Shown one piece after another: positions 3,630-18,097 of a stretch of DNA of 33,532 nucleotides. This stretch comes from Paracoccaceae bacterium (GTDB lineage Bacteria > Pseudomonadota > Alphaproteobacteria > Rhodobacterales > Rhodobacteraceae): assembly GCA_014879735.1 (NCBI GenBank), contig JACSRN010000124.1, positions 1 to 33,532 on the forward strand. The letters are read 5' to 3'. The notes under the pieces were generated by a model, which saw only the letters and a program-made list of their open reading frames with translations, searched no databases and was not told the origin of the DNA. How positions within the stretch are numbered: position 1 is the stretch's first letter; every line of letters begins with the position of its first letter. The translations under genes and the position numbers were made by a program.

Positions 3630-4913
3630 CTAGCGGCCCGCGCGCCCGGGGTCACGCCCGGAAACGACAGGGCTTGCGCGTCTGCGGCGGGCATGGGCCG
3701 GCGGAATGCCCAGAAGGCCGCGGTATTTGGCAACCGTGCGGCGGGCGACCGGCTCGCCATCCTGCGCCAGCGCCCGGGCCAGGGCTTCGTCCGACAGCGG
3801 CGCGGCGCGATCTTCGGCGGCAACCAGGCCGGCCAGCCGCGCACGCATTGCCCCGCCCGAGGGGCCGTCCTTTCGCAGTGCCGGCGAAAACATCGCGCGC
3901 AGCCACCAGGTTCCGCGCGGCGTATCGGCCGAGGCCCCGGAGACGACGCGCGACACCGTGGTCTGGTGCAGATCCACCGCCGCGGCGACCTCGGCCATGG
4001 TCATGGGCGACAGCGCGACAAACCCCTGGGCAAGCGTGGCGGACTGCCGCCGGAACACCTCGCGCGCGACCTTCAGAAGCGTGGCATTGCGGCCCTCGAT
4101 CAGCCGGATCAGCGCGCGCGCGGCGGGCCGGCCCGGACCTTCGCCCAGGGCCAGCGCCGGCAGGGCAGAGCGGTTCAGCGCCACCTCCCATCCGTCGCGG
4201 CCAAGCGCAACGGTCAGATCGGGTTCGGCAACCGGCGCCACCCCCGGCCCGAACCGCGCCCCCGGTTTCGGATCGTAGCGCCGCAGCCGGGCGATGCGCA
4301 GCACGATGGCCTCGACCGGGGCGCCCGTCTCGCGCGAGATCCGCTGGAAATTGCCGATGGCCACCAGCGGCAAACGGGCAAGGACGCCCTGCATCGCCGG
4401 ATCCAGCTCTCCGGCATCGGCCGCCTGCAGCGCCAGGCATTCGGAAAGATCGCGGGCAAAAATGCCCGGCGGGTCGATGCGCTGCAATCTGGCCAGGATC
4501 GCCGCAAGCGCCGGCTCTGTCAGCCCCGCCTCGATGGCCAGCGACGCCAGCGGCCGGCCAAGCCAGCCCGAGGGTTCCAGCGCATGGGCCAGCACCTCGG
4601 CGCCGCGCAGTTCGGCCGGGTCAAGGCGCAGGGCGCGGATCTCGGCCAGCACATGGGCGGCAAGGCTCGGATCGGGCGAGACAGGCTCGCCTGCGGCGCC
4701 TTGCAGCCGCGACAGCGCCTCGCCCCAGCGCGGCAGCCAGTCGGTGCGGACGGGCGCCGTCAGGACAAGCGCAGGGTTCTCGGCCGCCTGTTCCTCCAGA
4801 AACCGGGTCAGCCCTGCGGCATCGCTGCGCAGGATCTGGATCGCCGTGTTCAGCGCGGGGTTCAGCGACAGCCGCTGGCTCTGCGCAATGGTGATGCGGG
4901 CGCGCGATGGCAT
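3630..4913 (-). CDS. rpoN: RNA polymerase sigma-54 factor RpoN
   Basis: This 427-residue protein has the sigma-54 architecture. The N-terminal activator-interacting region contains QSQRLSLNPALNTAIQIL. The core-binding domain follows. Near the C-terminus is a helix-turn-helix (MAEVAAAVDLHQTTVSRVVSG) and then the signature RpoN box ARRTVAKYR at residues 390-398. It directs core polymerase to -24/-12 promoters and needs AAA+ enhancer-binding activators. It is shorter than the enterobacterial protein (about 480 residues) because the acidic linker after region I is nearly absent, as known for some Rhodobacter RpoN copies. Rhodobacteraceae often carry several rpoN paralogues; no nif or flagellar genes are nearby to say which copy this is. 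Confidence 0.95.
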   Translation of the reverse strand: MPSRARITIAQSQRLSLNPALNTAIQILRSDAAGLTRFLEEQAAENPALVLTAPVRTDWLPRWGEALSRLQGAAGEPVSPDPSLAAHVLAEIRALRLDPAELRGAEVLAHALEPSGWLGRPLASLAIEAGLTEPALAAILARLQRIDPPGIFARDLSECLALQAADAGELDPAMQGVLARLPLVAIGNFQRISRETGAPVEAIVLRIARLRRYDPKPGARFGPGVAPVAEPDLTVALGRDGWEVALNRSALPALALGEGPGRPAARALIRLIEGRNATLLKVAREVFRRQSATLAQGFVALSPMTMAEVAAAVDLHQTTVSRVVSGASADTPRGTWWLRAMFSPALRKDGPSGGAMRARLAGLVAAEDRAAPLSDEALARALAQDGEPVARRTVAKYRGLLGIPPAHARRRRASPVVSGRDPGRAGR

Positions 4914-6260: not shown

Positions 6261-6929
6261 ATGTCCCGCTGGCGCCTGCTGATCTGCCTTGTCCTGCTTC
6301 CGCTGTCCGCGGCGGCCGAAGAGGCGCAGGTCCCGGGCACCGTGGGCCGGCTGGATCTTGCGGCCCGGCTTTATTCCCTGGGTCTGGCCACCGACGATGC
6401 GCTGGTCGTGGTTGCCGCGGTGCGCCTGGCCGATGCGGTAGCCCTGCGCGGCGATGCCGGCTGGACCAGGACGACAGTTGCCGCCGACACCGCCGCCCCG
6501 GGGCCGGCGGCCCCTGCCGCAGGCCCCGCCGCGATGGCCGTGCTGTCGGCCGAGGCCCGGCAGGCGGCGCTGCTGATGGCCGAGGGCGACGATGCGCTGA
6601 CCGAGATTGCCGAGGATGCCTTTGCCGAAACCGCCCGCCCGCGCTTTGGCGGGGCGAACAGCGCGGCCGGCCGGCTGGCAGCCGGACAACAGGATGTCTG
6701 GCAGATTGCCTTCGCCGGGCAGCAGCGCGCCGAGATCGGCGTCTTCGGCGACGGAACCGGCGGCCTTGGCTGGCGCGTGGCCAATGCGGCGGGCGTGCCG
6801 GTCTGCCAGGGCACCTCGGTCTCGGCGCCGCTGTTCTGCACCTTCACGCCGGCGGAAAACGCCTGGTATCGCGTGACGGTCCGGTCGGCCGCCGATACCG
6901 GAACCGGCTATCTTCTGATCACCAACTGA
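6261..6929 (+). CDS. Secreted PPC-like domain protein 1 (cluster paralogue)
   Basis: The protein has 222 residues with a signal peptide (MSRWRLLICLVLLPLSAAAEE). A short helical module follows (LAARLYSLGLATDDALVVV), then an Ala/Pro-rich linker and a second helical segment (AALLMAEGDDALTEIAEDAF). The C-terminal beta-rich domain of about 90 residues resembles pre-peptidase C-terminal (PPC) domains. It carries a Cys pair spaced CX10C (CQGTSVSAPLFC) and ends GYLLITN. Proteins at 7057 and 15373 share the same order of modules, the CX10C spacing and the same ending, so all three are paralogues. No catalytic motif is visible. Being beside secreted caspases and a trypsin-like protease, it may be a substrate, inhibitor or scaffold, but this is not shown. 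The start at ATG 6261 fits the signal peptide; no strong Shine-Dalgarno is seen (AAGGA about 10 bp upstream). Confidence 0.8.
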   Translation: MSRWRLLICLVLLPLSAAAEEAQVPGTVGRLDLAARLYSLGLATDDALVVVAAVRLADAVALRGDAGWTRTTVAADTAAPGPAAPAAGPAAMAVLSAEARQAALLMAEGDDALTEIAEDAFAETARPRFGGANSAAGRLAAGQQDVWQIAFAGQQRAEIGVFGDGTGGLGWRVANAAGVPVCQGTSVSAPLFCTFTPAENAWYRVTVRSAADTGTGYLLITN

Positions 6930-6947
6930 CCCGCGGCGCGTGACTCG

Positions 6948-6962
6948 TGACGATATTTGTCA
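6948..6962 (+). promoter_or_regulatory. Operator-like element, copy 1 (TGAC-N3-ATTT-GTCA)
   Basis: TGACgatATTTGTCA is an inverted repeat of TGAC/GTCA half-sites 7 bp apart, extended to CGTGAC/GTCACG. It lies between the genes at 6261 and 7057, about 95 bp upstream of the second start. The same 15-bp pattern, including the ATTT, recurs at 11686-11700 and on the minus strand at 15252-15266. It is probably bound by one regulator, perhaps the response regulator at 13093-13788. Confidence 0.65.
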
Positions 6963-7056
6963 CGGCGATACGGCTTTTCAAACGCCGGCCGGGCTGCCAG
7001 ACTTGACCCGTCGCATATCCCCGCCGCAGGACGCCGGCCCAATTGCAGGATCTGTC

Positions 7057-7875
7057 ATGAAATTCAAATCCCTTTCCCTGGCGCTCATCACCACCGCCCT
7101 GGTCGGCCTGACGCTGCCCTCGCTGGCCGAGGACGGCAAGGGACCGAATATCGATCCCACCGCCACCGGCACGCCGGGCGCCCCCGCAACGCTGGCGATG
7201 GCCTATGAACTTTTCGCCCTTGGCAAGGCCGAGGGCGATGCGCTGACCGTGCTCACGGCGGCAAAACTGGCGGCCGGGGCCGAAAGCGAACCGCAGGAGC
7301 CCGTGGCGCTCGACCCGGCCAAGGTGGCGGTCGAGGAGGCCGGACAGGAGGCGCTGGCAAAGCGCAAGGCAGTACCGGCCGCGCCCGCCGCCCCCGCACC
7401 GATCACGAACGGCGAGCCGCGGCCGGCCGCCAAGGCAAGCTACCAGTCGGGCGAGGCCGGTGACGACGGCACCGCCGCGGCCCCGCCCAGTTCGGCCGAG
7501 ATGTTCGCCCTGGCCACCGAACTGGCCGGCGACGACGAAACCATGAAGGAGTTGATCGCCGATGCCCAGGCCGAGGCGAGCCGCGGCCGCATCGGTGGCG
7601 CCGTGACCTGGAACTCGCGCGTGACCTCGGGCCAGATCGACGTCTGGGAAATCCCGTTCTACGGCAATTCCTATGCCGAGATCGCGGTTTCCGGCGATGG
7701 CGACGCAAACCTCGATGTGGTGGTCACGGACGAGAACGGCAACGTGATCTGCTATGACACCAGCTTTTCGGATCAGGTCTATTGCGATTTCGTGCCGGCC
7801 TGGGACGGCTACTTCTATGTGATGGTGGAAAATGCCGGGCAGCTCCGGAACAGCTATTATCTGATGACCAACTGA
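7057..7875 (+). CDS. Secreted PPC-like domain protein 2 (cluster paralogue)
   Basis: The protein has 272 residues. ATG 7057 is preferred over the upstream in-frame start because a signal peptide follows it directly (MKFKSLSLALITTALVGLTL, cleaved near PSLAED) and AGGA precedes it. The first helical module reads LAMAYELFALGKAEGDALTV. A longer Ala/Pro-rich linker follows (KAVPAAPAAPAPITNGEPRP), then the second helical segment (MFALATELAGDDETMKELI). The C-terminal PPC-like beta domain contains WEIPFYGNSYAEIAVSGDGD and a CX10C pair (CYDTSFSDQVYC), and ends SYYLMTN. It is the longest of the three paralogues, and its promoter carries operator copy 1. No catalytic residues are recognised. It is probably periplasmic or secreted, with a presumed disulfide between the paired cysteines. 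Confidence 0.82.
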   Translation: MKFKSLSLALITTALVGLTLPSLAEDGKGPNIDPTATGTPGAPATLAMAYELFALGKAEGDALTVLTAAKLAAGAESEPQEPVALDPAKVAVEEAGQEALAKRKAVPAAPAAPAPITNGEPRPAAKASYQSGEAGDDGTAAAPPSSAEMFALATELAGDDETMKELIADAQAEASRGRIGGAVTWNSRVTSGQIDVWEIPFYGNSYAEIAVSGDGDANLDVVVTDENGNVICYDTSFSDQVYCDFVPAWDGYFYVMVENAGQLRNSYYLMTN

Positions 7876-7905
7876 CGCCCGCCACAGGTCGCAACAAGCA
7901 AGATC

Positions 7906-7935
7906 AAAGGGGTCCGGCGAAAGCCGGGCCCCTTC
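7906..7935 (+). terminator. Rho-independent-type terminator after PPC-like gene 2
   Basis: A 10-bp G/C stem (7909-7918 with 7923-7932, one G-T pair) is capped by a GAAA loop and extended by A-T pairs on both sides. It lies 31 bp after the stop codon. No long T-run follows (only ttcgtcct), so termination may be partial. Confidence 0.65.
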
Positions 7936-8498
7936 GTCCTGGCAAGGTCTGCCCCAGGACTTCGGCCGCGCGCCCTTTGCCGGGGATCTCGCGCGCCCCA
8001 GGGTCGGCCGGGGCTGGCGTCATGGGCTGCCGGGGCGGGCGCCGTGGGCCACGGTCCCGGCTTTGGACGACGTCCGGCCCAGGCGCCGTTCCGGCGCGGC
8101 CCGGTCGATGCCTGGCCCCGACGCAATCGCCGCCCGCCCCTGCCCGGCCAATGAGACGCAGAGGCTGGCCCTGCGGCCCGCGGATCGGCCGGCCGCCGGG
8201 GCCGCACGGCGCCGCCGGGGTGCAAGCCGCCCGCGGCGGAGACCCTGACGGCCGTACCTCATCCAGCCGTACCACCTCCAGCCATACCCTCTCCGGCCGT
8301 ATCGCCTCCAGCCGGACCGGCCGGTTGGCCGGGATGGTTCCACGGCATGATCCGCCGGTCCCCGGCATCCCGCCTCCCCCGGGGGCTGGCCGGCTCGCCG
8401 GGCTGCCGCGTCCCGGGGGGCAATTGCCCCTTCCCGGCGCTCGGCGGGCTGGCAGGCGCATCGCGCCGGCTCCCGCCAGGGGGATCGGAAATGAAGAC
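7936..8498. other. Non-coding spacer between convergent transcription units
   Basis: About 560 bp of very GC-rich sequence separate the PPC-like gene 2 terminator from the trypsin-like gene terminator. Open frames here lack coding character. The only structure I see is the 15-bp degenerate tandem repeat at 8249-8322. Confidence 0.6.
8249..8322. repeat. Degenerate 15-bp tandem repeat, about 5 units
   Basis: Units at 8263-8277, 8278-8292, 8293-8307 and 8308-8322 follow the pattern CCAGCCGTACCACCT with 3 to 5 changes each; a fifth partial unit starts at 8249. Because 15 is divisible by three, an open minus-strand frame reads 5-residue repeats here (RLEAI-RPERV-WLEVV), but that frame does not look like a real gene. 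Confidence 0.7.
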
Positions 8499-8526
8499 CC
8501 CCTCCCCTCGGCAAGAGGGGAAGGGG
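8499..8526 (-). terminator. Hairpin terminator after the trypsin-like gene
   Basis: Arms at 8499-8509 and 8515-8526 pair over 11 bp with one bulge and a 5-nt loop. On the minus strand a T-containing tail (tcttcattt) follows. It lies about 47 bp downstream of the stop codon at 8574. Confidence 0.55.
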
Positions 8527-8573
8527 CATCGGCCAAAGCCCGGGTGCTCTGTGCCGGCGACTGGAGGTGCCGG

Positions 8574-9641
8574 TCAGGGATTGGCCGAGATCACCTCGTT
8601 CAGCCACGGCACGAATCTCGACACATTGGTATAGGCCGAGAACATTGCCTTTTCCTCGCAGCCGTGCCCGGCCGATCCGGTCAGACCCCAACTGACGATG
8701 CCGGCCTGGATATAGCTGCCATCCTCCAGCGGCACCACCAGCGGGCCGCCCGAATCGCCGCTGCAGCTGGTCTTGCCGCCCTCGAAAGTGCCCGAGCAGA
8801 TCATGTTCTCGCTCATCGGCTGGGGTGCTGCGGCAACAAGCTGGTCCCACAGCGGATAGGCCGCATCGTCGCCCACATCGAGCGCCATCACCGCATAGGA
8901 AAAGCCCTGCGCCGCATCCTCGGCCCGCGCCTCCATCATCGCGGTGTTGCACATCTCGCGGTCAAGCATCTGGATTTGTGCTTCGCGCAGGTCGGCCGAG
9001 GGCGTGCCGCCGTTCTGCAGGCCCCAGCCGGTGACGATCGTGGTGATGCCGGGCTGCTGCAGGATGTCACCGAAGGCCGCGTCGGGCACCTCGACCGTCT
9101 TGTAGGGCGCGGTCGGCTTGCGGGCCAGCTTGATCAGGGCGATGTCATAGTCGAACTGGTCGGCGGTATAGCTCGGGTGGTAGTGGATCGCCTCGACCGG
9201 CACGCGGTCGCCGGTTCCGTCAAGCTTGTTCGTGCCGACAAGGATCGAGATCTCGCCGGGCTGGACGATGATCTCGTTGCCCTGCTCGTCGGGCCAGACC
9301 ACGCAATGCGCGGCCGTCAGCACCCATTGGTCCAGCACCATCGAGCCGCCGCAGAACTGGCTGTCGACGCCGACCGGCTTGTCGGCCATGGTCAGCGCCA
9401 CCTGCCAGGGCCATTCGCCCTGATCGGCAAGCTGGCCGCCGACCACCTTGGCACCGGCCGGATCGGCCGCCGCCTCGGCGGCATCACGCGCGGCCTTCTT
9501 GCCCGATGCGGCATATTCGAAGGGCGAGGCGGTCGACGCGTCGATGGCGGGGGCTGCGGGCGCGGCCGTCTCCGCCAGCGCCGGCAGCGCCGCCCAGACC
9601 AGTGCCAGCGCGGCAAGGGAGGAGGAAAGCGAACGGGTCAT
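8574..9641 (-). CDS. Secreted chymotrypsin-fold serine protease zymogen (S1A)
   Basis: The protein has 355 residues with a signal peptide (MTRSLSSSLAALALVWAALPALA) and a propeptide of about 42 residues ending at Lys65. The mature N-terminus would be VVGGQ, the IVGG-type motif that inserts to form the oxyanion hole. The catalytic triad is His112 (LTAAHC), Asp166 (DYDIALIKL) and Ser297 (GDSGGP). The S1 base residue (chymotrypsin position 189) is Thr291 rather than the trypsin Asp, and position 226 appears to be Ser, so basic P1 preference is not expected. Its start codon overlaps the caspase stop by ATGA, implying translational coupling and cotranscription. Conversion after Lys65 would activate it; the neighbouring caspase is a candidate activator (inference). 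Confidence 0.93.
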   Translation of the reverse strand: MTRSLSSSLAALALVWAALPALAETAAPAAPAIDASTASPFEYAASGKKAARDAAEAAADPAGAKVVGGQLADQGEWPWQVALTMADKPVGVDSQFCGGSMVLDQWVLTAAHCVVWPDEQGNEIIVQPGEISILVGTNKLDGTGDRVPVEAIHYHPSYTADQFDYDIALIKLARKPTAPYKTVEVPDAAFGDILQQPGITTIVTGWGLQNGGTPSADLREAQIQMLDREMCNTAMMEARAEDAAQGFSYAVMALDVGDDAAYPLWDQLVAAAPQPMSENMICSGTFEGGKTSCSGDSGGPLVVPLEDGSYIQAGIVSWGLTGSAGHGCEEKAMFSAYTNVSRFVPWLNEVISANP

Positions 9642-11635
9642 TGCAATGTCCTTTCTATCTCAAACGGGGTCACACCGACCCCGGGGTTCAGGCGCACGAT
9701 CTGGCGGATCATCGTCAGCGCGGCGGGTTTCAGGGAGAAGCCGCGCATCGCGGCGCCGTCTTCGGTCGTCAGCCGGTCCTCCAGCCACAGCGCCATGGCA
9801 TCCGAGGCGCCGGCATAGGCCCGGGTCATTTCGGGGGTGGCCAGGCGGGTCAGGTCGACGCGCTGGCCGCTGTCCTTGTCGACCGGCACACCCAGGATCC
9901 ACAATTCCTCGGTTCCGGCCACGGCGCTGGCCTCGATCTGCAGCCCGATGCGGACGGATTCCCCCGGGGCCAGCCGGTTCACCATGTTCTGCTGCGGCCA
10001 GATCGGCTGCACGGTGAAGTCGGCCGCCATGTACAGGACCGAGACATCCTGCAGCTTGCCCGAGCGGTTGGTCAGCGTCAGCCAGAGCTGATCGCAGGGC
10101 GCGGCCGCGGGGCCGGTCCAGCTGCCGGCCGGGCCGGGGGCGGCACATTCCCCGCCCTCGACCGCCGCGGGCCGGCGCTCGATTGCCATCTCGATCACCG
10201 GGGCAGCGGTCAAGGCGCGGCCGGCCGCACCTGCCAGCGTCTCGCGCAGGCGAAGACCATGGGCCGCCGTCTCCAGCGCACGGGCCAGCGCATCGGCCTC
10301 GGTCTCGCCAGGCTCGCGTTGCACGCGGGGGGTGGAGCCGGGGCCGTCCGGGTCAAGGACGCCATCGCCACCCGCCAGCGCCACGGTTCCATCGACCAGG
10401 ATCGGAACCAGATCGGGTTTCACCCCCGGCGCGGGCAACGCGGCCTGCCATCCGGCATAATCCTGGCCATCGTCCGGATCGGCACGCACGGCAGCGGCCA
10501 GCACCAGCGGTTCTGGCGGCGGCGAAGCCGTCACCTCGGCCCAGAGCGCGCCTTCTGCTGGCGGCGCCGTCAGCGTGGCATCGCGGGCGGTGGCCCCGGC
10601 GACCATCGCCGCGCCCAGGGGATCGCCCCCCGCGCCCTCGGCGTAAAGCGCCAGTTCCGTACCGGCTTCGACGCCCTGCAGCAGCCCGGCTGCCAGCTTG
10701 CCATCCTCGATGCGAAAGCGTTGCATGCCGGCAGCCTCGCCGAAGACGCCGGCATCCAGCATCGGCCCCTCGCCTTCCGGCACCTGCCGGGCGGGACCCT
10801 GCACCATCGCATCTGCGGCGGCGCCCAGCACCTGCCGCCAGGTCGCCTGCGGTGCCGCAGCCAGCACCTGCGCCAGCCGCAGGGTGAATTCGCCATGCCA
10901 TTCGCCGGTGTCGCCCAGCGGATATTCATAGGACCGCTCGTCCGATTGCGAGGAGTAGAGAAAGACGTAATCCCCGCTCAGCCCGAGCGCCTGATCCGGC
11001 CCTTCGGCATCACCCGCGACATCCTCGGGAATGCCCAGATCCGTTTCGTCCAGCACCCGGGCCACACCCTCGCCCTCGACCGAGCGGAAGCCGGTGGCGG
11101 AATGGCAGGCGTCGATCAGGCCCACCAGCCTGACCCCGCGCGCCAACATGCCCTGGGCCCATTGCGCCAGTTCGTCGTCCAGAAGCGCATTCTCGACCAT
11201 GCCGATCTCGCCCTTCCAGCGGGCGGCATCGGCGGGCAGGAAGATCTCGTCATAGCCGCCGCCCTCGTCGCCGGACAGATCCGGCGCCTGGGCGCCATGG
11301 CCCGAGAAATAGAAAACCACGGTATCGCCGGGCTTCGCCGCGGCGGCGGTGGCATCCATCGCGGCCAGGATGCCGTCGCGGGTGGGCGCGCCGCTCGCCG
11401 CACCCTGGGGAAGACCCGCGGGCCCCGTCGTCAGGACCGTCATGTCGCGGGCGGCGACGCCGCGGGCGGCCAGCGTCTCGGCCATCAGCCGCACATCGTC
11501 CTCGGGGCCTTTCAGATCGGCATCCAGGACGGCATAGTCCCCGACCCCGATCAGCAGCGCATGCACCTCGGCCCGGGCCGCCGGGGCCGCAAGCGCGGCC
11601 GCAGCCGCAAGCGCATATGGAAGGATCCGTGTCAT
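9638..11635 (-). CDS. Secreted caspase-fold cysteine protease 1 (peptidase C14, orthocaspase-like)
   Basis: The protein has 665 residues. ATG 11635 was chosen because it begins a signal peptide (MTRILPYALAAAAALAAPAARA). The C14 domain runs from about 24 to 260. It has the catalytic dyad His113 (VVFYFSGHGAQ) and Cys177 (LVGLIDACHS), the YDEIFLPAD segment between them, and ENALLDDEL. The large C-terminal region ends with a beta-rich part (LWLTLTNRSGKLQDVSVLYM) resembling DUF4384-type domains that follow bacterial caspases. It is probably periplasmic or secreted. Family precedent (metacaspases, orthocaspases) indicates cleavage after Arg or Lys, not Asp. It overlaps the trypsin-like gene by 4 bp, and a putative own promoter and operator lie in the 72 bp upstream. 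The second caspase at 15998 is a distant paralogue. Confidence 0.92.
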   Translation of the reverse strand: MTRILPYALAAAAALAAPAARAEVHALLIGVGDYAVLDADLKGPEDDVRLMAETLAARGVAARDMTVLTTGPAGLPQGAASGAPTRDGILAAMDATAAAAKPGDTVVFYFSGHGAQAPDLSGDEGGGYDEIFLPADAARWKGEIGMVENALLDDELAQWAQGMLARGVRLVGLIDACHSATGFRSVEGEGVARVLDETDLGIPEDVAGDAEGPDQALGLSGDYVFLYSSQSDERSYEYPLGDTGEWHGEFTLRLAQVLAAAPQATWRQVLGAAADAMVQGPARQVPEGEGPMLDAGVFGEAAGMQRFRIEDGKLAAGLLQGVEAGTELALYAEGAGGDPLGAAMVAGATARDATLTAPPAEGALWAEVTASPPPEPLVLAAAVRADPDDGQDYAGWQAALPAPGVKPDLVPILVDGTVALAGGDGVLDPDGPGSTPRVQREPGETEADALARALETAAHGLRLRETLAGAAGRALTAAPVIEMAIERRPAAVEGGECAAPGPAGSWTGPAAAPCDQLWLTLTNRSGKLQDVSVLYMAADFTVQPIWPQQNMVNRLAPGESVRIGLQIEASAVAGTEELWILGVPVDKDSGQRVDLTRLATPEMTRAYAGASDAMALWLEDRLTTEDGAAMRGFSLKPAALTMIRQIVRLNPGVGVTPFEIERTLQ

Positions 11636-11642
11636 GCCGCTC

Positions 11643-11670
11643 AGATTAACGTCAGGAAAGCACTGTACAA
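11643..11670 (-). promoter_or_regulatory. Putative promoter of caspase 1
   Basis: On the minus strand, TTGTAC (complement of 11665-11670) and TAATCT (complement of 11643-11648) sit 16 bp apart just before ATG 11635. This leaves a very short leader. The operator-like element at 11686-11700 is centred about 25 bp upstream of the -35 box, a position suited to an activator. Assignment is by eye. Confidence 0.4.
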
Positions 11671-11685
11671 GTGCGGCCGAAAGCA

Positions 11686-11700
11686 TGACTGCATTTGTCA
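11686..11700 (+). promoter_or_regulatory. Operator-like element, copy 2 (TGAC-N3-ATTT-GTCA)
   Basis: TGACtgcATTTGTCA lies in the 72-bp gap between the histidine kinase stop and the caspase 1 start. It has the same half-sites, 7-bp spacing and ATTT as the copies at 6948-6962 and 15252-15266. Together with the -35/-10 candidate it suggests that caspase 1 and the trypsin-like gene are transcribed separately from the upstream signalling genes. Confidence 0.65.
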
Positions 11701-11707
11701 CCGCCCG

Positions 11708-13096
11708 CTAGGCCGGCGCCCTGGGCCAGGCGATTTCCACCGTCAGACCGCGATCGGTCCTGGGCAGGGACAGCCGCGCGCCATGGCGCAGGGCGATGGC
11801 GCGGACCAGCGCCAGGCCAAGACCGTGACCCTTGATGCCGCGGGCGCGGTCGCGCTCGGCCCGGGTGAACCGTTCGAACACCTCTTCGCCCATCCCCTCG
11901 GGCAGGCCCGGCCCGGTGTCGGCCACCCGCAGCACATGGCGGTCGGCGGCAAACAGCGTCAGCGTCAGGCTGTCGCCCGGCGCGCAATATTTGATCGCAT
12001 TGTCGAGCAGGTTGGCCACCATCTGCGCGATCAGGTTGCGGTCGCCCAGCACCCGCAGGCCCGGCGCGATCTCGGCCCGCGGGATCAGGCCCTTTTCCTC
12101 GGCCGGCGCCTCGTACAGCTCCCACATCTCGCCTGCCACCTGCGACAGGTCGACCGGCACCAGCCCGCCGCCGATGCCCTGATCCGCCTCGGCCCGGCTG
12201 ATGTCGAGGAGAGAATCGAAGACCCGGATCGCCTGCCGCATCTCGGCCCTTGCCTCGCGCACCACCTCCTCCTGGCCCTCTATCCGGTCCAGCCGGCCCA
12301 GCATCCGGTTCAGCGGCGTGCGCATCTCATGCGCGATGGTATCGGACAGCCGGTGCGTCGCACGGTTCAGATTGGCGATCCGGTCCAGCATCTGATGGAC
12401 ATGCCTCTCCAGCAGGCCGAATTCGTCGGGGCTGCGCGGTCCGGGCAGCCGCGCATCCAGATCGCCCGCCGCCACCCGGTCGGCCAGGTCATTCAGCCGC
12501 CCGATCCGCCCCATCACCTGCCGCGCCGCCAGCCAGCCCACCCCGGCCGCCGCCAGCGCAATGGCAACCAGCAGCCCCAGCATGCCATGGCGCAACGCCG
12601 CCAGCGTCTGGTCGACCGGCGCAAGCGACCGGCCGACCAGAAGCGGAAACCCCCCCGGCAATTCGCGCGCCACCATCAGCCAGGGCTGGCCATTGACCAG
12701 AATCTCGCGGGCGGGGTCGACGGTGAATCCCTGGCCCTGCGCATCCAGACCCTCGGGCCAGCTGGGCAGCGTGCCGGCCAGCACCTCGCCGCGCCGGTCG
12801 AGCAGCAGAAACATCTCCTCGCCGCCCGAGGTGGCCGAGCGATAGTTGATCGCCTCGCGCAGGGCGATGATGCGCCGCTGCTCGTAAAGCGCCGCAAGCC
12901 CGTCAAGATCGGCGGCAAGCAGCGTCCGCTGCGCCTCGGTCATCCGAAGGTCGACCAGCCGGTACTGCAGGCCCATGGCCAGCAGCGACAGGAGCGCCGC
13001 GCCCGCCGCCATGATCGCCGCCAGCCGCAGGGTGACGCGGGCCCGGATCGGGCGTTCGTCGGCGGGGCGTCCGGACGGCGCGGCCGGGGGCATCAC
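11708..13096 (-). CDS. Two-component sensor histidine kinase (HAMP)
   Basis: The protein has 462 residues. The order is a cytoplasmic N-tail, TM1 (about 24-44), an extracytoplasmic sensor region (about 45-168), TM2 (about 169-190), HAMP (about 191-245), and a DHp domain with phospho-acceptor His256 in SDTIAHEMRTPLN. The HATPase domain follows, with N box NLIAQMVANLLDNAIKY, G1 VADTGPGLP and G2 GHGLGLALV. It is an inner-membrane kinase that phosphorylates the adjacent regulator. Its start overlaps the regulator stop by 4 bp (ATGA). The sensor loop contains FLLLDRRGEVLAGTLPSWPE, not assigned to a named family. Placement between an HtrA-like protease and a caspase suggests an envelope or proteolysis-related signal, which is inference. 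Confidence 0.95.
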   Translation of the reverse strand: MMPPAAPSGRPADERPIRARVTLRLAAIMAAGAALLSLLAMGLQYRLVDLRMTEAQRTLLAADLDGLAALYEQRRIIALREAINYRSATSGGEEMFLLLDRRGEVLAGTLPSWPEGLDAQGQGFTVDPAREILVNGQPWLMVARELPGGFPLLVGRSLAPVDQTLAALRHGMLGLLVAIALAAAGVGWLAARQVMGRIGRLNDLADRVAAGDLDARLPGPRSPDEFGLLERHVHQMLDRIANLNRATHRLSDTIAHEMRTPLNRMLGRLDRIEGQEEVVREARAEMRQAIRVFDSLLDISRAEADQGIGGGLVPVDLSQVAGEMWELYEAPAEEKGLIPRAEIAPGLRVLGDRNLIAQMVANLLDNAIKYCAPGDSLTLTLFAADRHVLRVADTGPGLPEGMGEEVFERFTRAERDRARGIKGHGLGLALVRAIALRHGARLSLPRTDRGLTVEIAWPRAPA

Positions 13097-13788
13097 ACCC
13101 CGGCGGGGGGCAGGGGTGCAAAGATATAGCCTTCGCCGCGGGCGGTCTGGATCGCCTGGCTGCCGGCCTCCTCCAGCTTGCGCCGCAACCGCCCGACATG
13201 GACGTCGACCACATTCGTGCCGGGGTCGAAATGCAGATTCCAGACATTTTCCAGAAGCTGCATCCGCGTCACCACCTGGCCGGCATTGCGGGCAAAGTAG
13301 ATCAGCAGCTCGAACTCCTTCGGCGATACGGCGACATGCGCGCGCCTTACATGCACGGTGCGCGCCTTGAGGCGAATTTCCAGCTCGCCAAAGGCCATCA
13401 GGTCGTTGTCCAGAACCTGCATCGTTCCGCGGCGCAGCAGCGCGCGCAGCCGGGCGCGCAGCTCCTCGGCCTCGAAGGGCTTGGGCAGATAGTCGTCCGC
13501 CCCCTTCTCCAGCCCCTCGACCCGGTTTGCCGCGCGCCCCAGTGCCGAGAGGATCAGGATCAACGCCCGGCTGCCGCCGGCGCGGATGCGCGCCATGCCT
13601 TCCACCCCATCGCCCCCGGGCAGCATCCGGTCAAGGACGATGACCCGGTAGTCGCCCGCGGCGGCCTCGGCGATCCCGCTCTCCAGCGTGTCGCGGTGAA
13701 CGGAAGCACAGCCCAGGGCCTCGACTTCGCGGGTCACGGCGGCGGCGATTTCTGCATCGTCCTCGACGATCAGGATACGGTCGGTCAT
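13093..13788 (-). CDS. OmpR/PhoB-type response regulator
   Basis: The protein has 231 residues from ATG 13788, chosen over an upstream in-frame TTG because AGGAGG lies just before it. The receiver domain has acidic residues in ILIVEDD, phospho-acceptor Asp53 (VIVLDRMLPGGDG) and the Lys of LPKPF. The C-terminal winged helix (about 130-228) carries VSPKEFELLIYFARN and TNVVDVHVGRLRRKL, typical of the OmpR/PhoB class. It is the partner of the kinase at 11708. It may bind the TGAC-N3-ATTT-GTCA elements that recur in this cluster. It is 21 bp downstream of the HtrA-like gene. Confidence 0.95.
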   Translation of the reverse strand: MTDRILIVEDDAEIAAAVTREVEALGCASVHRDTLESGIAEAAAGDYRVIVLDRMLPGGDGVEGMARIRAGGSRALILILSALGRAANRVEGLEKGADDYLPKPFEAEELRARLRALLRRGTMQVLDNDLMAFGELEIRLKARTVHVRRAHVAVSPKEFELLIYFARNAGQVVTRMQLLENVWNLHFDPGTNVVDVHVGRLRRKLEEAGSQAIQTARGEGYIFAPLPPAGV

Positions 13789-13809
13789 GGCACCCTCCTG
13801 CAATCAGGT

Positions 13810-15183
13810 TCAGAACACCACGACCGCCGGGTCAAGCACATTCGCGCCGCCGACCGGCCGGACACCGGGTTCGGATGCCCCCCAGGGGTCGAGATAGATA
13901 TGCCGGGTCTGCCCGCCGGGCGCCGCGACCAGGATCAGCGCCGGCTCGGTGATCTCCAGCGCCGCAAGCGCCGCCGCGTCCATCTCTGCGCCATTGACCG
14001 ACAGGATGCGGTCGCCCTTGGCAAGCCCGGCAAACAGCGCCGGCGAATTCTGGGTGACATCCTTCACGACGCCGTCCGCGCCCAGCACCACGCCCAGCGC
14101 ACCGAGGCGATAGCTGGCAACCCGGGCCGGCGTGCCCATCGAGGCGGGCAGTTCACGCACCTTCAGCCCGATCGAGGGTGCCTCGTCCGCGGTTTCGAAG
14201 GCCAGTGCCAGCGTCAGATCCTCGGTGCCGCGACGCACGCCAAGGGTTGCCACACCGTCGGGCTGCGCGGTCTCGATGGCAAAGGCGAAATCGCCGGGGT
14301 TCGCCAGCGCCTGGCCGTCGACGGCCAGAATGACGTCGCCCGGCAGCAGGCCGGATGCCGCCGCAAGCCCGCCGCGGGTCGTGGCATCGACCAGCAACCC
14401 GGTCGTCGGCACGCCCAGCGCCGCGGCCACCTTGCGGTCGACGGGTCGCGCCGTCAGCCCGAGCTTGGGCAGCGGTGCCAGCGTCTCGTCGATCAGGCCC
14501 TGCACGATGCGGTCCAGATCCGGGGTCGCTATGGCATAGGCAATGCCGACGAACATCCGGCTGCCATCCGCGATCTGGCTGTTCATGCCCAGAAGCCGGC
14601 CCTCGGCATCGACCAGCGGCCCGCCGGAAGAGCCCGGGTTCACCGCAGCATCATGCTGCACCATCTTCAGCGGCACCGTGATTTCGACCTGCCGGGCCGT
14701 GGCCGAGATCCGTCCCTCGGTAAGTGTGAACTCGATCCCGAGGGGGGCCCCCAGCGCATAGACCTCGTCGCCAAGCCCGGCAGGGACCGCCGCGGGCGCA
14801 AGGCCCCGGCGGGGTTGACCATCCTCGCGCGGGGGAAGCGAGATCACCGCCACATCCCGCGTCTCATCCCTGGCGATCACCGATCCGACGACGGCCTCGC
14901 CGTGCCGGTCGACCAGGACCACCTCCTCGGCGTCCCCCACCACATGGGCGTTGGTGACGGCCACCACCGCCTCGTCGCCCCAAAGGAAGGCCGAGCCGAG
15001 AAAGCGCTCCTCGGCATCGTCCGACCGCACCACCAGCACGGCATCCATTGCCGATTCCAGCGGCGCATCCCCTGCCCCGGCCGGCGCGGCAACAACTGCC
15101 CCCGCCGCAACCAGAAAACACGTCACAACCATCGGCACCAATCGCACGCCCATGGCGCGGACTCCGGTCTTGATCGAAAGCAT
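13810..15183 (-). CDS. HtrA/Deg-like serine protease with PDZ domains, exported
   Basis: The protein has 457 residues from ATG 15183 (AGGA just upstream; an in-frame ATG at 15213 would add ten residues). The signal peptide is around MGVRLVPMVVTCFLVAAGAV. The protease domain has His80 (VTNAHVVGD), Asp110 (TRDVAVISL) and Ser186 (NPGSSGGPLVD), the Deg-type triad. Two PDZ-like modules follow, with GLAAASGLLPGDVILAVDGQ and SPALFAGLAKGDRILSVNG. It presumably acts in the periplasm on misfolded or regulatory substrates. It is the first gene of the run that continues with the response regulator and kinase, reminiscent of other envelope-stress loci that pair Deg proteases with signalling genes. Its promoter region is shared with the divergent PPC-like gene 3 and contains operator copy 3. 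Confidence 0.92.
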   Translation of the reverse strand: MLSIKTGVRAMGVRLVPMVVTCFLVAAGAVVAAPAGAGDAPLESAMDAVLVVRSDDAEERFLGSAFLWGDEAVVAVTNAHVVGDAEEVVLVDRHGEAVVGSVIARDETRDVAVISLPPREDGQPRRGLAPAAVPAGLGDEVYALGAPLGIEFTLTEGRISATARQVEITVPLKMVQHDAAVNPGSSGGPLVDAEGRLLGMNSQIADGSRMFVGIAYAIATPDLDRIVQGLIDETLAPLPKLGLTARPVDRKVAAALGVPTTGLLVDATTRGGLAAASGLLPGDVILAVDGQALANPGDFAFAIETAQPDGVATLGVRRGTEDLTLALAFETADEAPSIGLKVRELPASMGTPARVASYRLGALGVVLGADGVVKDVTQNSPALFAGLAKGDRILSVNGAEMDAAALAALEITEPALILVAAPGGQTRHIYLDPWGASEPGVRPVGGANVLDPAVVVF

Positions 15184-15251
15184 CTTGTCCTGTTCCTTGG
15201 GTAACTGCCCCATGGTCCGGGAAGCTACGCGCCTGCCCGTCCGGGGTCACA

Positions 15252-15266
15252 TGACAAATCCGGTCA
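15252..15266 (-). promoter_or_regulatory. Operator-like element, copy 3 (TGAC-N3-ATTT-GTCA)
   Basis: On the minus strand this reads TGACcggATTTGTCA, extended to CATGAC/GTCATG. It sits in the 189-bp divergent spacer, about 69 bp upstream of the HtrA-like start and 106 bp upstream of PPC-like gene 3. Half-sites, spacing and ATTT match copies 1 and 2. A single bound site could serve both directions. Confidence 0.65.
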
Positions 15267-15372
15267 TGAAGGAATTGTGGATTTACAGATGGATGTACGG
15301 ATCGCATCCTCTGTTCGACCGATGAACCCGCGCGCCGCGCCCCGGTGGCTGCCGCACAGCAAGAACGAGACG

Positions 15373-15987
15373 ATGCCCAGAACCGCCGCCCTCGCCCTCT
15401 GCCTTGCGCTGATCGCGCAAACCGCGACAGCGCAGGGTGCCGCAGCCCCGGCCCTGGGCCGGGCCGCGTTGGCGGCCGGGCTCTACCACCTCGGCCTGAC
15501 CCAGGGCGACGCGCTGCTGGTCCTGACCGCGGCCCGGTTGCGCCGCGAGGCCGGCCTGCCCGACCACACGGCCGATGGCGGATCCGTCACGCTGCTGACC
15601 TGGCAGGAAATGCTGACCACGGCCCGGCAGCTGGCCGGCGACGATCCCACCCTTCTGGCGCTGGTCGGCGATGCCGAGGCCGAGCGCGACAAGGGCGTGC
15701 GCGTCGGCCCTGCCTATGTGATCGCCCGCATCGCGCCCGGCCTTGGCCCCGATACGCTGGATTACGAATTCAAGGGTGGCGAGGTCGCCGATGTCTATGT
15801 CGAAGGGGCGGCCGGCACCAACCTCGACCTCTATGTCCACGACGAGGCGGGCCGGCTGATCTGCACCGACACCGACCCCTCGAACATTGCCTATTGCAAC
15901 TGGACGCCGCGCCAGGATGCGATCTTTACCGTCACGGTGGAAAACCGCGGCGCCGCCGCAACCGAGTATTTCCTGATCACCAACTGA
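15373..15987 (+). CDS. Secreted PPC-like domain protein 3 (cluster paralogue)
   Basis: The protein has 204 residues. ATG 15373 begins a signal peptide (MPRTAALALCLALIAQTATA), whereas the upstream in-frame ATG codons at 15277 and 15322 would bury it. The module order matches the genes at 6261 and 7057. Helical module one is LAAGLYHLGLTQGDALLVL, and module two is MLTTARQLAGDDPTLLALV. The PPC-like C-terminal domain has AGTNLDLYVHDEAGR, the CX10C pair CTDTDPSNIAYC, and the ending EYFLITN. It lacks the long Ala/Pro linker of paralogue 2. It is followed after 10 bp by caspase 2 on the same strand, so the two are almost surely cotranscribed. This is the strongest physical link between the PPC-like family and a caspase. 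Confidence 0.85.
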   Translation: MPRTAALALCLALIAQTATAQGAAAPALGRAALAAGLYHLGLTQGDALLVLTAARLRREAGLPDHTADGGSVTLLTWQEMLTTARQLAGDDPTLLALVGDAEAERDKGVRVGPAYVIARIAPGLGPDTLDYEFKGGEVADVYVEGAAGTNLDLYVHDEAGRLICTDTDPSNIAYCNWTPRQDAIFTVTVENRGAAATEYFLITN

Positions 15988-15997
15988 GGACCGAACG

Positions 15998-18097
15998 ATG
16001 CTCCGGACACTCCTGCTGACCTCCGCCCTCTGCCTGTTTGCCCTGCCCGCGCTGGCGCGCGAGAACCATGCCCTGCTGATCGCCGCGTCGAAATACGACA
16101 ACCTCGACGAGAAATGGTGGCTGAACGGGCCGGGAAACGACGCAGTCCTGGTTGAGACCTTCCTCAAGACCGAGGCGCCGGTCCCCTTCGCGGACGACAA
16201 TGTCACCGTGCTGGCGGATGCCCCCGGCCATGACCGCGCCACGCTGGACAATATCCGCAAGGCCTTTGCCGATCTGGCCGCAACGGTCGAGCCGGGCGAT
16301 TTCGTCTATCTGCATTTCTCGGGCCATGGCACGCAGGCGCCGGCGGCCGATCCCGATACCGAGCTTGACGGGCTGGACGAATTGTTCCTGCCGGTCGACA
16401 TCGGCAAATGGAGCGACAAGGTCGGCCAGGTCGAGAATGCGCTGGTCGACGACGAGATCGGCCAGATGATCGACGCCATTCGGGCGAAGGGCGCCGATGT
16501 CTGGGTGGTCTTCGACAGTTGCCATTCCGGGACCGCCACCCGCGCGGTCGAGACCGACGACGATGATGTGAGGGTTCGCCAACTCGACCCCTCGGCCCTT
16601 GGCGTGCCCGATGTCGAGGCGATGTCGGATGTCGTCACCCGAGGGGTGGGCGAGGATCCCCGCGCCACGCCCGAGGCGCCGATGGATCAGGCCGACGAAG
16701 CCAGCGCCGCCGATGCGCCCGGCATGGGCAGCATCGTCGCCTTCTATGCCGCCCAGACCAACGAGGTGACGCCGGAGAAGAAACTGCCCAAGGGCGATCC
16801 GCAGCGAAAGCCGCAGGGCGTCTTCACCTATACGCTGTTCGAGACGCTGGCCGAATATCCCAATGCCACCTATGGACAGGTCGCGCAGGAATTGCTGCGC
16901 AAGTATTCGGTGAAGAACCTGGCCAAGGCGACGCCGCTGTTCGAGGGCGATCTCGACCGGACCGTCTTCGACGCCGCCCCCGGCGAGCGCGTGTCGCAAT
17001 GGCAGGCAGAGGTCGACGGCACCAGCTTCACCATCCCGGCGGGCACGCTGCACGGGCTGTCGCTGGGCGACGAACTGGCGGTCATGCCGACCGCCGCCGG
17101 GGCCACGGACGCGGCCATCGGCTATGCGAAGATCACCCGCATCGACACATTCACCGCCACGGCGGAGCCGGTGGCAGAGGCCGACAAGGTGCTGCCTGCC
17201 GAACTGCCGAAGGGGCTTTACCTGCGCAAGCTCGATTCCGCGGTCGACTATGGTCTGACCGTGGCCCTGCCGCCCGCGGGCAGTGCACCCGCCGACATGC
17301 TGCTTTCGGCGCTTGGCGCGCTGCAGGAGGCCGCGGGGCCGCGGCTGAATTTCGTGCAGGCCGGGCAGGAGGCGGACCTGACGCTGGCCGTCCTGCCCGA
17401 CAGCAGCCGCCCCGATGCGATCTGGGTCCTGCCGGGCACCGGCCTGATCGAGGATCCGGCCACCACGCCCTCGGTCGGCACCGCCGACAAGAGCGCCGAT
17501 CAGGTGGCGTTGACCCTGGTCGACACGTTGCAGCGCATGTCCAAGGCGCTGAACCTGATGAAGGTGGGCAATGCAGTCGGCACCGGCGATCTGGACGTCG
17601 AGATCGAAATGCAGACCCGCAATGCCGACGAGCCGAAGCTGCGCGCCCTGCCGCCCACGCCAGTGCCCACCCTTCTGCCCGATGACGAGGTGCATGTGCT
17701 GGCCCGCAACAACATGGACATCGCGGTGGATGTGAACGTCCTCTACATCGGGGCCGACTATTCGATCACCCACTGGTTCTCGGGCCGCCTGCAGCCGGGC
17801 GACGAGTTGAAAAAGCCGCTCTTTGCCATCGGCGACGAGGAACTGGGCGAGGAACGCATGATCGTGGTCGTCACCCCGGCGAAAAAGCACAGCCAGGTCG
17901 AAGACCTGTCCTATCTGGCGCAGGACGCGCTGGACACGATGCGGGCGGTCGGCGACGGTTTTGACCAGGCGCTCGAGGACGCGGGCTTCGGCGAAACCAC
18001 CCGCAGTGCCGTGCCGCTGGCCGATACCGGCGCGGATGCCGGTCCCGCGCCGATGGTGCTGCAGATCGAGGTCAAGACCCGGGCGGTGGGGGACTGA
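15998..18097 (+). CDS. Secreted caspase-fold cysteine protease 2 (peptidase C14, orthocaspase-like)
   Basis: The protein has 699 residues with a signal peptide (MLRTLLLTSALCLFALPALA). The C14 domain begins ENHALLIAASKYDNL. It has catalytic His110 (FVYLHFSGHGTQ) and Cys175 (WVVFDSCHSGT), with LDELFLPVD between them and the ENALVDDEI motif shared with caspase 1. An acidic insert follows the Cys (ETDDDDVRVRQLDP). The C-terminal half includes ARNNMDIAVDVNVLYIGADY, equivalent to the DUF4384-like region of caspase 1. GAGG precedes the start. It is probably exported and, by family precedent, cleaves after Arg or Lys. It is cotranscribed with PPC-like gene 3 and shares the divergent promoter region with the HtrA-like operon. 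Confidence 0.92.
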   Translation: MLRTLLLTSALCLFALPALARENHALLIAASKYDNLDEKWWLNGPGNDAVLVETFLKTEAPVPFADDNVTVLADAPGHDRATLDNIRKAFADLAATVEPGDFVYLHFSGHGTQAPAADPDTELDGLDELFLPVDIGKWSDKVGQVENALVDDEIGQMIDAIRAKGADVWVVFDSCHSGTATRAVETDDDDVRVRQLDPSALGVPDVEAMSDVVTRGVGEDPRATPEAPMDQADEASAADAPGMGSIVAFYAAQTNEVTPEKKLPKGDPQRKPQGVFTYTLFETLAEYPNATYGQVAQELLRKYSVKNLAKATPLFEGDLDRTVFDAAPGERVSQWQAEVDGTSFTIPAGTLHGLSLGDELAVMPTAAGATDAAIGYAKITRIDTFTATAEPVAEADKVLPAELPKGLYLRKLDSAVDYGLTVALPPAGSAPADMLLSALGALQEAAGPRLNFVQAGQEADLTLAVLPDSSRPDAIWVLPGTGLIEDPATTPSVGTADKSADQVALTLVDTLQRMSKALNLMKVGNAVGTGDLDVEIEMQTRNADEPKLRALPPTPVPTLLPDDEVHVLARNNMDIAVDVNVLYIGADYSITHWFSGRLQPGDELKKPLFAIGDEELGEERMIVVVTPAKKHSQVEDLSYLAQDALDTMRAVGDGFDQALEDAGFGETTRSAVPLADTGADAGPAPMVLQIEVKTRAVGD

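Follow-up and report, generated by a model that had tools for sequence, protein, structure and literature searches.

For the most part, bacterial caspases are treated as cytoplasmic proteases of cell death and defence, and few of their substrates are known. In CBASS, CRISPR type III-E (Craspase) and gasdermin systems, caspase, CHAT and trypsin effectors act in the cytoplasm, and in each a protease activates another effector. Nuclease-trypsin pairs are reported as a further case of this kind (PMC12799240). Also reported in print are alphaproteobacterial trypsin-p20-DUF4384 fusion proteins (PMC6426788) and a conserved Rhizobium metacaspase operon with a protease and a protease inhibitor (PMC3501461). 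Here, we describe a gene cluster at positions 6261-18097 of a 33,532-nt stretch of DNA (the window) from a Paracoccaceae bacterium (GCA_014879735.1, contig JACSRN010000124.1), which encodes two metacaspase-type proteases, an S1A serine protease zymogen, an HtrA-like protease, three PPC-like proteins and a sensor kinase with its response regulator. The most likely reading, to which we assign a probability of roughly 55%, takes the locus for a dedicated two-component regulon that answers an envelope signal and would drive a relay from caspase to S1A protease outside the cytoplasm.

Like the fusions and the Rhizobium operon, the locus ties a trypsin-like domain to a caspase domain. In contrast to them, these are separate proteins, the S1A protease lacks D189, and a kinase and regulator, HtrA, PPC-fold proteins and a patatin-like phospholipase are added; the window proteins scanned included no serpin. 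With prokaryotic metacaspases or orthocaspases (C14B) the two caspases share the fold, the His-Cys dyad and the acidic S1 pocket, but they are exported, occur as two per locus, have a long C-terminal region without Pfam match and are tied to an S1A zymogen. The latter belongs to the zymogen type of the chymotrypsin family by its catalytic His, its GDSGG motif and the I/V-x-G-G N-terminus behind the propeptide, but not to the S1A enzymes of trypsin specificity, since Asp189 is absent. Unlike the effectors of CBASS, Craspase and gasdermin systems, those encoded here are exported and under two-component control. Neither a cognate cyclase nor a STAND NTPase nor a CRISPR gene, as expected for CBASS, Avs or CRISPR systems, was seen among the locus proteins scanned (Pfam, PADLOC), and none of the ten window proteins scanned gave a gasdermin Pfam match. 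In the staphylococcal extracellular protease cascade, exported zymogens also activate each other, but the protease families are unrelated and caspases are missing from it. The Cpx-type envelope stress response, CpxRA with DegP, likewise has an OmpR-type regulator and an envelope kinase and adjoins them to an HtrA protease; the difference lies in the dedicated caspase, S1A, PPC and patatin regulon, and the kinase and regulator stay below the cut-offs for CpxA (92 bits, cut-off 486) and CpxR (101 bits, cut-off 341), which excludes them from the Cpx equivalogs. Thus, CBASS and CRISPR-type systems, gasdermin systems, Cpx and the trypsin-caspase fusions each lack agreement in one defining feature, and we found no named system with this set, in line with the original prediction. 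No description of the locus was found in the literature, subscription papers and preprints being outside the scope of the search. The proteins are new members of known families, and the novelty is at the level of the system only.

Conservation of the locus and its regulatory box

From left to right, the window carries ppc1 and ppc2 on the plus strand, the S1A gene, cas1, the genes of the histidine kinase (HK) and the response regulator (RR) and htrA on the minus strand, and then, divergently, ppc3 and cas2 on the plus strand; the flanks are an argE-like gene and a gene for a glycolate-oxidase-like FAD enzyme. The two caspases, the S1A and HtrA-like proteases, the sensor/regulator pair and the three PPC-like proteins are all encoded by intact open reading frames at the places predicted, with agreeing Pfam domains for all but the PPC-like ones. 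The predicted frames stood in their positions, and only the likely starts shift slightly (cas1 to 11635, RR to 13788, ppc2 to 7057, ppc3 to 15373). The tight packing was also found as described, with overlaps of 4 nt between S1A and cas1 and between HK and RR, and gaps of 21 nt between RR and htrA and 10 nt between ppc3 and cas2.

Conserved synteny, co-occurrence across genera and shared regulation had been set beforehand as the test of the prediction, and the locus passed it. The gene cas2 was searched in named genomes (16 loci) and in 394 Rhodobacteraceae genomes (393 genera), and the neighbourhoods were scored by tblastn and profile HMMs; all locus counts leave out the duplicates L020, L021, L023, L027, L028 and L038 and also L001-L003 (L and G denote our loci and genomes). 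Conservation, co-occurrence, distribution of the box, catalytic and pocket residues and export signals (by a simple rule) were computed. A cas2 match above 400 bits is present in 30 of the 394 family genomes, and therefore the system is an accessory trait. All 23 genomes with an S1A orthologue above 500 bits are among these 30. At the 37 non-redundant family cas2 loci, the RR is present in 34 (all but L016, L018 and L044, a short contig) and a PPC gene lies directly 5' of cas2 in 36. The gene cas1 is within the locus in 26 of the 37 and elsewhere in the genome in five more (L046-L050). The S1A gene follows cas1 directly and on the same strand in 30 of these 31 cases, all five moved pairs included; the exception is L012. 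More distant caspases of the family also adjoin an S1A gene (5/6 regions, L051-L056). In a class-level draw, 11 of 385 genomes gave a caspase match at the limit used. The distance matrices of seven parts of the system correlate in all 21 pairs (r 0.40-0.93; 0/500 permutations each), which speaks for joint inheritance and not for interaction. Partial sets exist as well: L067 (4286-9913) keeps patatin, HK, RR, htrA, ppc3 and the box described below, with no cas2 or cas1 detected in its genome.

The shared regulation is seen in a sequence box. The pattern ACATGACA occurs in 26 of 32 intergenic sequences between htrA and ppc3, with 0.1 expected; refined, the box reads TCACATGACAAAtccsGTCATG and contains the inverted repeat TGAC-N7-GTCA. 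Only these 32 regions went into the training of a matrix, which leaves the other promoters as an independent test at a threshold of >10 bits. At this threshold, the box lies upstream of cas1 in 24 of 31 genes (32 rows, one gene being in two pieces) and upstream of ppc1 or ppc2 in 19 of 21 genes of cas2-bearing genomes, compared with 2 of 164 genes inside downstream units (cas2, S1A, patatin, RR, HK) and 5 of 300 control open reading frames. It also precedes four of the five unlinked cas1-S1A pairs, the moved ppc2 genes of L075 and L076, the ppc2-CHAT units of L109 and L110 and the CHAT genes of L047 and L109. Over all loci there are 93 sites above 13 bits, training sites included, versus 5 in shuffled sequence. 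Among PPC genes of loci without regulator, 2 of 13 have the box (in L018, L057 and L058, absence of the kinase was judged on the region, not on the genome).

In the window, the training site between htrA and ppc3 (TCACATGACAAATCCGGTCATG, plus strand, 15247-15268) scores 38.1 bits. The cas1 box (minus strand, 11684-11705, about 49 bp upstream of the gene) is an exact pattern match with 16.6 bits by the matrix from the htrA-ppc3 sites, and the box upstream of ppc2 (minus strand, 6946-6967; TGACAAATATCGTCA at 6948-6962) matches the pattern with one mismatch and scores 12.6 bits. Both exact pattern matches in the window's own genome fall in this locus, as do 3 of 9 when one mismatch is allowed; a reversed control pattern had no match there, and no box was found at the CHAT genes of that genome (L111, L112). 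Because the box recurs at cas1, PPC and some CHAT genes even where these have moved, its distribution is that of a regulon and not of a chance cluster, and its co-distribution with the neighbouring regulator suggests that this regulator binds it. Further members were sought with a simple 15-base pattern. Two of the 19 extra sites (L084, L085) precede short genes of the PPC-helical type, and the rest (urease, lipoprotein and unlabelled neighbours) look like chance or are ambiguous. The short exported proteins of L084 (1561-1962), L085 and L096 consist of the helical half of the PPC family only, and each has the box upstream.

The caspases, the S1A zymogen and the PPC-fold proteins

Cas1 (minus strand, 9638-11635; Pfam 2.1e-21) and Cas2 (plus strand, 15998-18097; Pfam 7.6e-18) are exported metacaspase-type C14 proteases. 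The predicted signal peptides and extracytoplasmic nature hold up under a crude rule, which is passed by Cas2 in 38/38, by Cas1 in 31/32 rows, with the second fragment of a broken gene as the one failure, and by the S1A protease in 30/30. The residue counts (36 Cas2, 30 Cas1) leave out the pseudo-caspase of L044, L057 and the broken L048. The His-Cys dyad is intact throughout (H110/C175 of Cas2, 36/36; H113/C177 of Cas1, 30/30), and so is the pair of Asp residues of the acidic pocket (D48/D173, 36/36; D47/D175, 30/30). In a metacaspase alignment read by eye, these pairs align with D95 and D211 of TbMCA2, the two acidic pocket residues that hold the basic P1 residue in the T. brucei metacaspase, as reported in PMC6426788. 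Both caspases should thus prefer Lys or Arg at P1, a specificity predicted from these residues. Just past the catalytic Cys, there are invariant arginines (R182 and R194 in Cas2, each 36/36; R184 and R193 in Cas1), as would be expected for self-processing sites. An AlphaFold2 (AF2) model of Cas1 (pLDDT 81, pTM 0.58) is nearest to Arabidopsis metacaspases 9 and 4, followed by MALT1. Other caspases were seen on the way: the window's genome has a third, larger C14 protein (G000:C40:7306-8004, L001; open frame of 1134 aa), and at L057 (11358-14240) a WD40-caspase protein adjoins a cas2-like gene.

The S1A protease (minus strand, 8574-9641; Pfam Trypsin 1.9e-45) has the activation site K-VVGG and Thr at position 189, as judged by our own alignment and a PDB alignment. 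All 30 paired S1A proteases have the motifs AAHC, GDSGG and K/R-x-x-GG (R-G-I-G-G in L042), and P1 of the zymogen site is Lys in 14 and Arg in 16. Position 189, located by alignment to matriptase and TMPRSS6, is Thr in 27, Gly in two and Leu in one; Asp189 was found in 0 of 30. S1A proteases of the same family that do not lie with these caspases carry D189 in 9 of 10 cases (12 regions were fetched and L107 and L108 dropped for an unreadable motif; in one of the genomes, G040, the system is also present at another place), and those beside the more distant caspases again lack it (4/4 readable). The pocket is predicted to be chymotrypsin- or elastase-like. Since P1 is Lys or Arg and D189 is absent, the paired S1A protease should not cut its own activation site.

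Trypsin and caspase are separate genes at all 30 loci that have cas1 and S1A. Trypsin-caspase fusion polypeptides, all three with D189, are found in three genomes of two other alphaproteobacterial families (L060, L061, L065). At L065, a serpin gene (10513-11778) directly follows the trypsin-caspase-DUF4384 fusion gene.

The PPC-like proteins, encoded by ppc1 (plus strand, 6261-6929; PPC profile 187 bits), ppc2 (plus strand, 7057-7875) and ppc3 (plus strand, 15373-15987), had no match to models of Pfam, NCBIfam or PADLOC within the limits used. That they are PPC-like is supported by the AF2 model of Ppc3, the partner of Cas2 (46-row alignment, pLDDT 86), in which a helical bundle is followed by an eight-strand jelly roll. 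Foldseek matched this model to the subtilase Tk-SP (8.7e-7), the PPC domain of a Bacillus collagenase (5sv5; 1.5e-5, TM-score by target 0.69) and the binding domain of ColG. Ppc1 has the same helical-bundle and jelly-roll make-up, and all three are exported. The hinge that joins the two halves is of low confidence in the model. It contains Lys or Arg in 60/60 complete PPC proteins of caspase-bearing genomes (the cut PPC of L010 is left out), followed by Gly in 59, among them the divergent proteins of L057 and L058 from other families; in the window, it reads SRGRIGG in Ppc2 and DKGV in Ppc3. Among orphans of similar divergence (L068-L073), which come from genomes with no caspase match, 1/6 has Lys or Arg in the hinge and none has K/R-G.

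PPC domains are typical of secreted proteases, as the matches to 5sv5 and ColG illustrate, and sea water and algae are the source of several hosts. This would suit secreted exoproteases that serve nutrition and are matured by the caspases. Such a reading is quite improbable, because HtrA, a patatin lipoprotein and stand-alone, hinge-bearing PPC proteins fit mere digestion of substrates poorly and no fusion joins the PPC domains to the proteases.

HtrA, the two-component system and additional effectors

The HtrA-like protease (minus strand, 13810-15213; Pfam Trypsin_2 and two PDZ matches) has an intact triad, H90/D120/S196, in the window and keeps it in 32 of 35 copies. Its export is indicated by family membership and a hydrophobic stretch near the N-terminus, the signal-peptide rule failing in 13 of 35, the window's copy included. 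The OmpR-type RR (minus strand, 13093-13788; Pfam Response_reg and Trans_reg_C) and the sensor HK (minus strand, 11708-13096; HAMP, HisKA and HATPase_c) match many sensor families and, among the 25 matches listed for each, stay below every curated cut-off. By hydropathy, the kinase has two hydrophobic segments, with a periplasmic region at about residues 45-163. Outside the family, at L058 (452-6276), a caspase gene is followed on the same strand by two PPC genes and by genes for an RR and an HK, which have 34% and 28% identity, respectively, to those of the window.

The retained triad, the broad sensor matches and the resemblance to Cpx-type envelope stress control would also suit a set of co-regulated and independent quality-control enzymes, in which the regulator induces HtrA, caspases, S1A protease and phospholipase against envelope stress and no zymogen relay exists. 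We consider this somewhat unlikely: absence of D189 from the paired S1A proteases, the 30/31 adjacency of cas1 and S1A even after moves, the fusions and the PPC hinges oppose it and speak for a direct protease-to-protease link.

The original prediction had neither the box nor the additional partners seen in relatives. A patatin-like phospholipase (PF01734, 4.5e-15) is encoded between cas1 and HK in many loci and is present at 25 of the 37 cas2 loci. The GxSGG and DG motifs are found in 27/27 patatins and a lipobox in 22/27. After the lipobox Cys, residues other than Asp usually direct a lipoprotein to the outer membrane; in the patatins with a matched lipobox, this residue is Ala, Ser or Gly and never Asp, and they would therefore be sorted there. 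On two Pseudosulfitobacter plasmids (65 and 82 kb; the two examined of 55 matching records), the operon runs on past S1A and there encodes an exported TPR protein (908 aa), Ppc2 and a CHAT protease that is likewise exported. CHAT homologues are in the fetched stretch of at least 8 of the 37 cas2 loci (L009, L010, L016, L018, L033, L034, L035, L037), a lower bound as the stretches end at different places, and also in L047; by frame length, some are TPR-CHAT fusions.

Known defence systems have effectors of the caspase, CHAT, S1A protease and patatin types, and the locus is also on plasmids. A defence system was considered as a first reading and rejected: with PADLOC, the proteins of the window and the plasmids yielded nothing beyond single-protein matches (caspase, 5e-22 and 4e-22; RT-protease model on HtrA, 8e-13; phospholipase effector, 3e-4; LmuA, 1e-4; SduA) and no complete system, which agrees with the original statement that this is not the usual cytosolic abortive-infection cassette. 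A phage origin was likewise discarded, with one weak match among 50,697 phage records. Regulated self-lysis from the periplasm, as an abortive response to attack by phage or predator, is unlikely as well. Among the locus proteins scanned, there is neither a defence sensor nor a cyclase, an NTPase or a CRISPR gene product; the effectors are exported proteins, the order of the locus is the same across genera, and 52 of the 55 matching plasmid records are typed as non-mobilizable.

Elsewhere in the window, near the cluster, a gene for sigma-54 (RpoN), whose product has all three Pfam domains (3630-4913), lies beside a hydantoinase/oxoprolinase gene.

A proposed relay and its significance

The preferred reading, a two-component regulon with a caspase-to-S1A relay, can be put as a model, in which we infer the binding of the regulator to the box, the operon limits, the cleavages and their order, the signal and the outcome. 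The kinase would sense an envelope signal, and the phosphorylated regulator would bind the TGAC-N7-GTCA box and induce separate transcription units, namely htrA-RR-HK(-patatin), ppc3-cas2, cas1-S1A(-TPR) and ppc2(-CHAT). The effectors with export signals would leave the cytoplasm. Outside it, the metacaspases would process themselves at the conserved arginines behind the catalytic Cys and cut the S1A propeptide after the invariant Lys or Arg, freeing the V/I-I/V-G-G N-terminus. A further target of theirs would be the K/R hinge in the PPC proteins, and these proteins are possible inhibitors or guards. Activated S1A protease and lipid-anchored patatin would then carry out damage or remodelling of the envelope downstream. 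The extracytoplasmic proteolytic cascade originally predicted is supported to this extent by residues, gene fusion and co-regulation.

Several observations weigh against this model. With regard to the enzymes, Lys or Arg before I/V-x-G-G is common among S1A zymogens generally, so P1 alone proves little; the Cas2 of L044 (G272) is a pseudo-enzyme that has lost both catalytic residues (His to Leu, Cys to Ala), and a stop interrupts cas1 of L048. The whole HtrA triad is lost in 2/35 copies (L034, L041), so HtrA proteolysis is not strictly needed, and these copies are perhaps sensors only. Patatin was not found in the window's genome or in a congener, in a search whose positive control worked in 3/3 genomes. 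With regard to the hinge, the exception to K/R-G is the window's own Ppc1 with R-P, the orphans L066, L067 and L074 keep the hinge though no caspase was detected in their genomes, and the hinge could be a structural turn.

The regulation is not uniform either. The box scores 10 bits or less upstream of 7 of the 31 cas1 genes, none is found at ppc1 of the window (-8.7 bits) or at ppc3 of L045, and the CHAT genes of L009, L010, L016, L018 and L034 have no box of their own above 13 bits. Conversely, the box occurs without regulator at a ppc gene of G386 (L066, 12.8 bits), where no orthologous kinase was found and a distant one scores 221 bits compared with 630-702 for orthologues, and at one of G322 (L074, 18.9 bits), a genome that is 71% complete. 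Finally, the modules are loosely joined, with cas1 lacking S1A in L012, only patatin-ppc3-cas2 retained in L016 and L018 and no cas1 in the L045 region, and the correlated distances may reflect shared ancestry only.

It is tempting to go one step further, tentatively and at well below even odds, and to see in the regulon a periplasmic execution pathway. Caspases armed by the two-component system would activate a chymotrypsin-like zymogen and set free PPC guards locked by their hinge, a lipid-anchored patatin would attack the envelope, and the cell would be dismantled or remodelled from outside the cytoplasm in an apoptosis-like manner. If true, this would be a bacterial apoptosis-like cascade built from real relatives of caspase and trypsin. 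Irrespective of the outcome, a conserved, dedicated regulon gives a clear prediction of cut sites in named partners together with a defined regulatory box, and it is carried by named isolates, for example of Pseudosulfitobacter pseudonitzschiae and Shimia. The substrates of bacterial caspases thereby become a directly testable question, and the relay would be a bacterial counterpart of animal protease relays.

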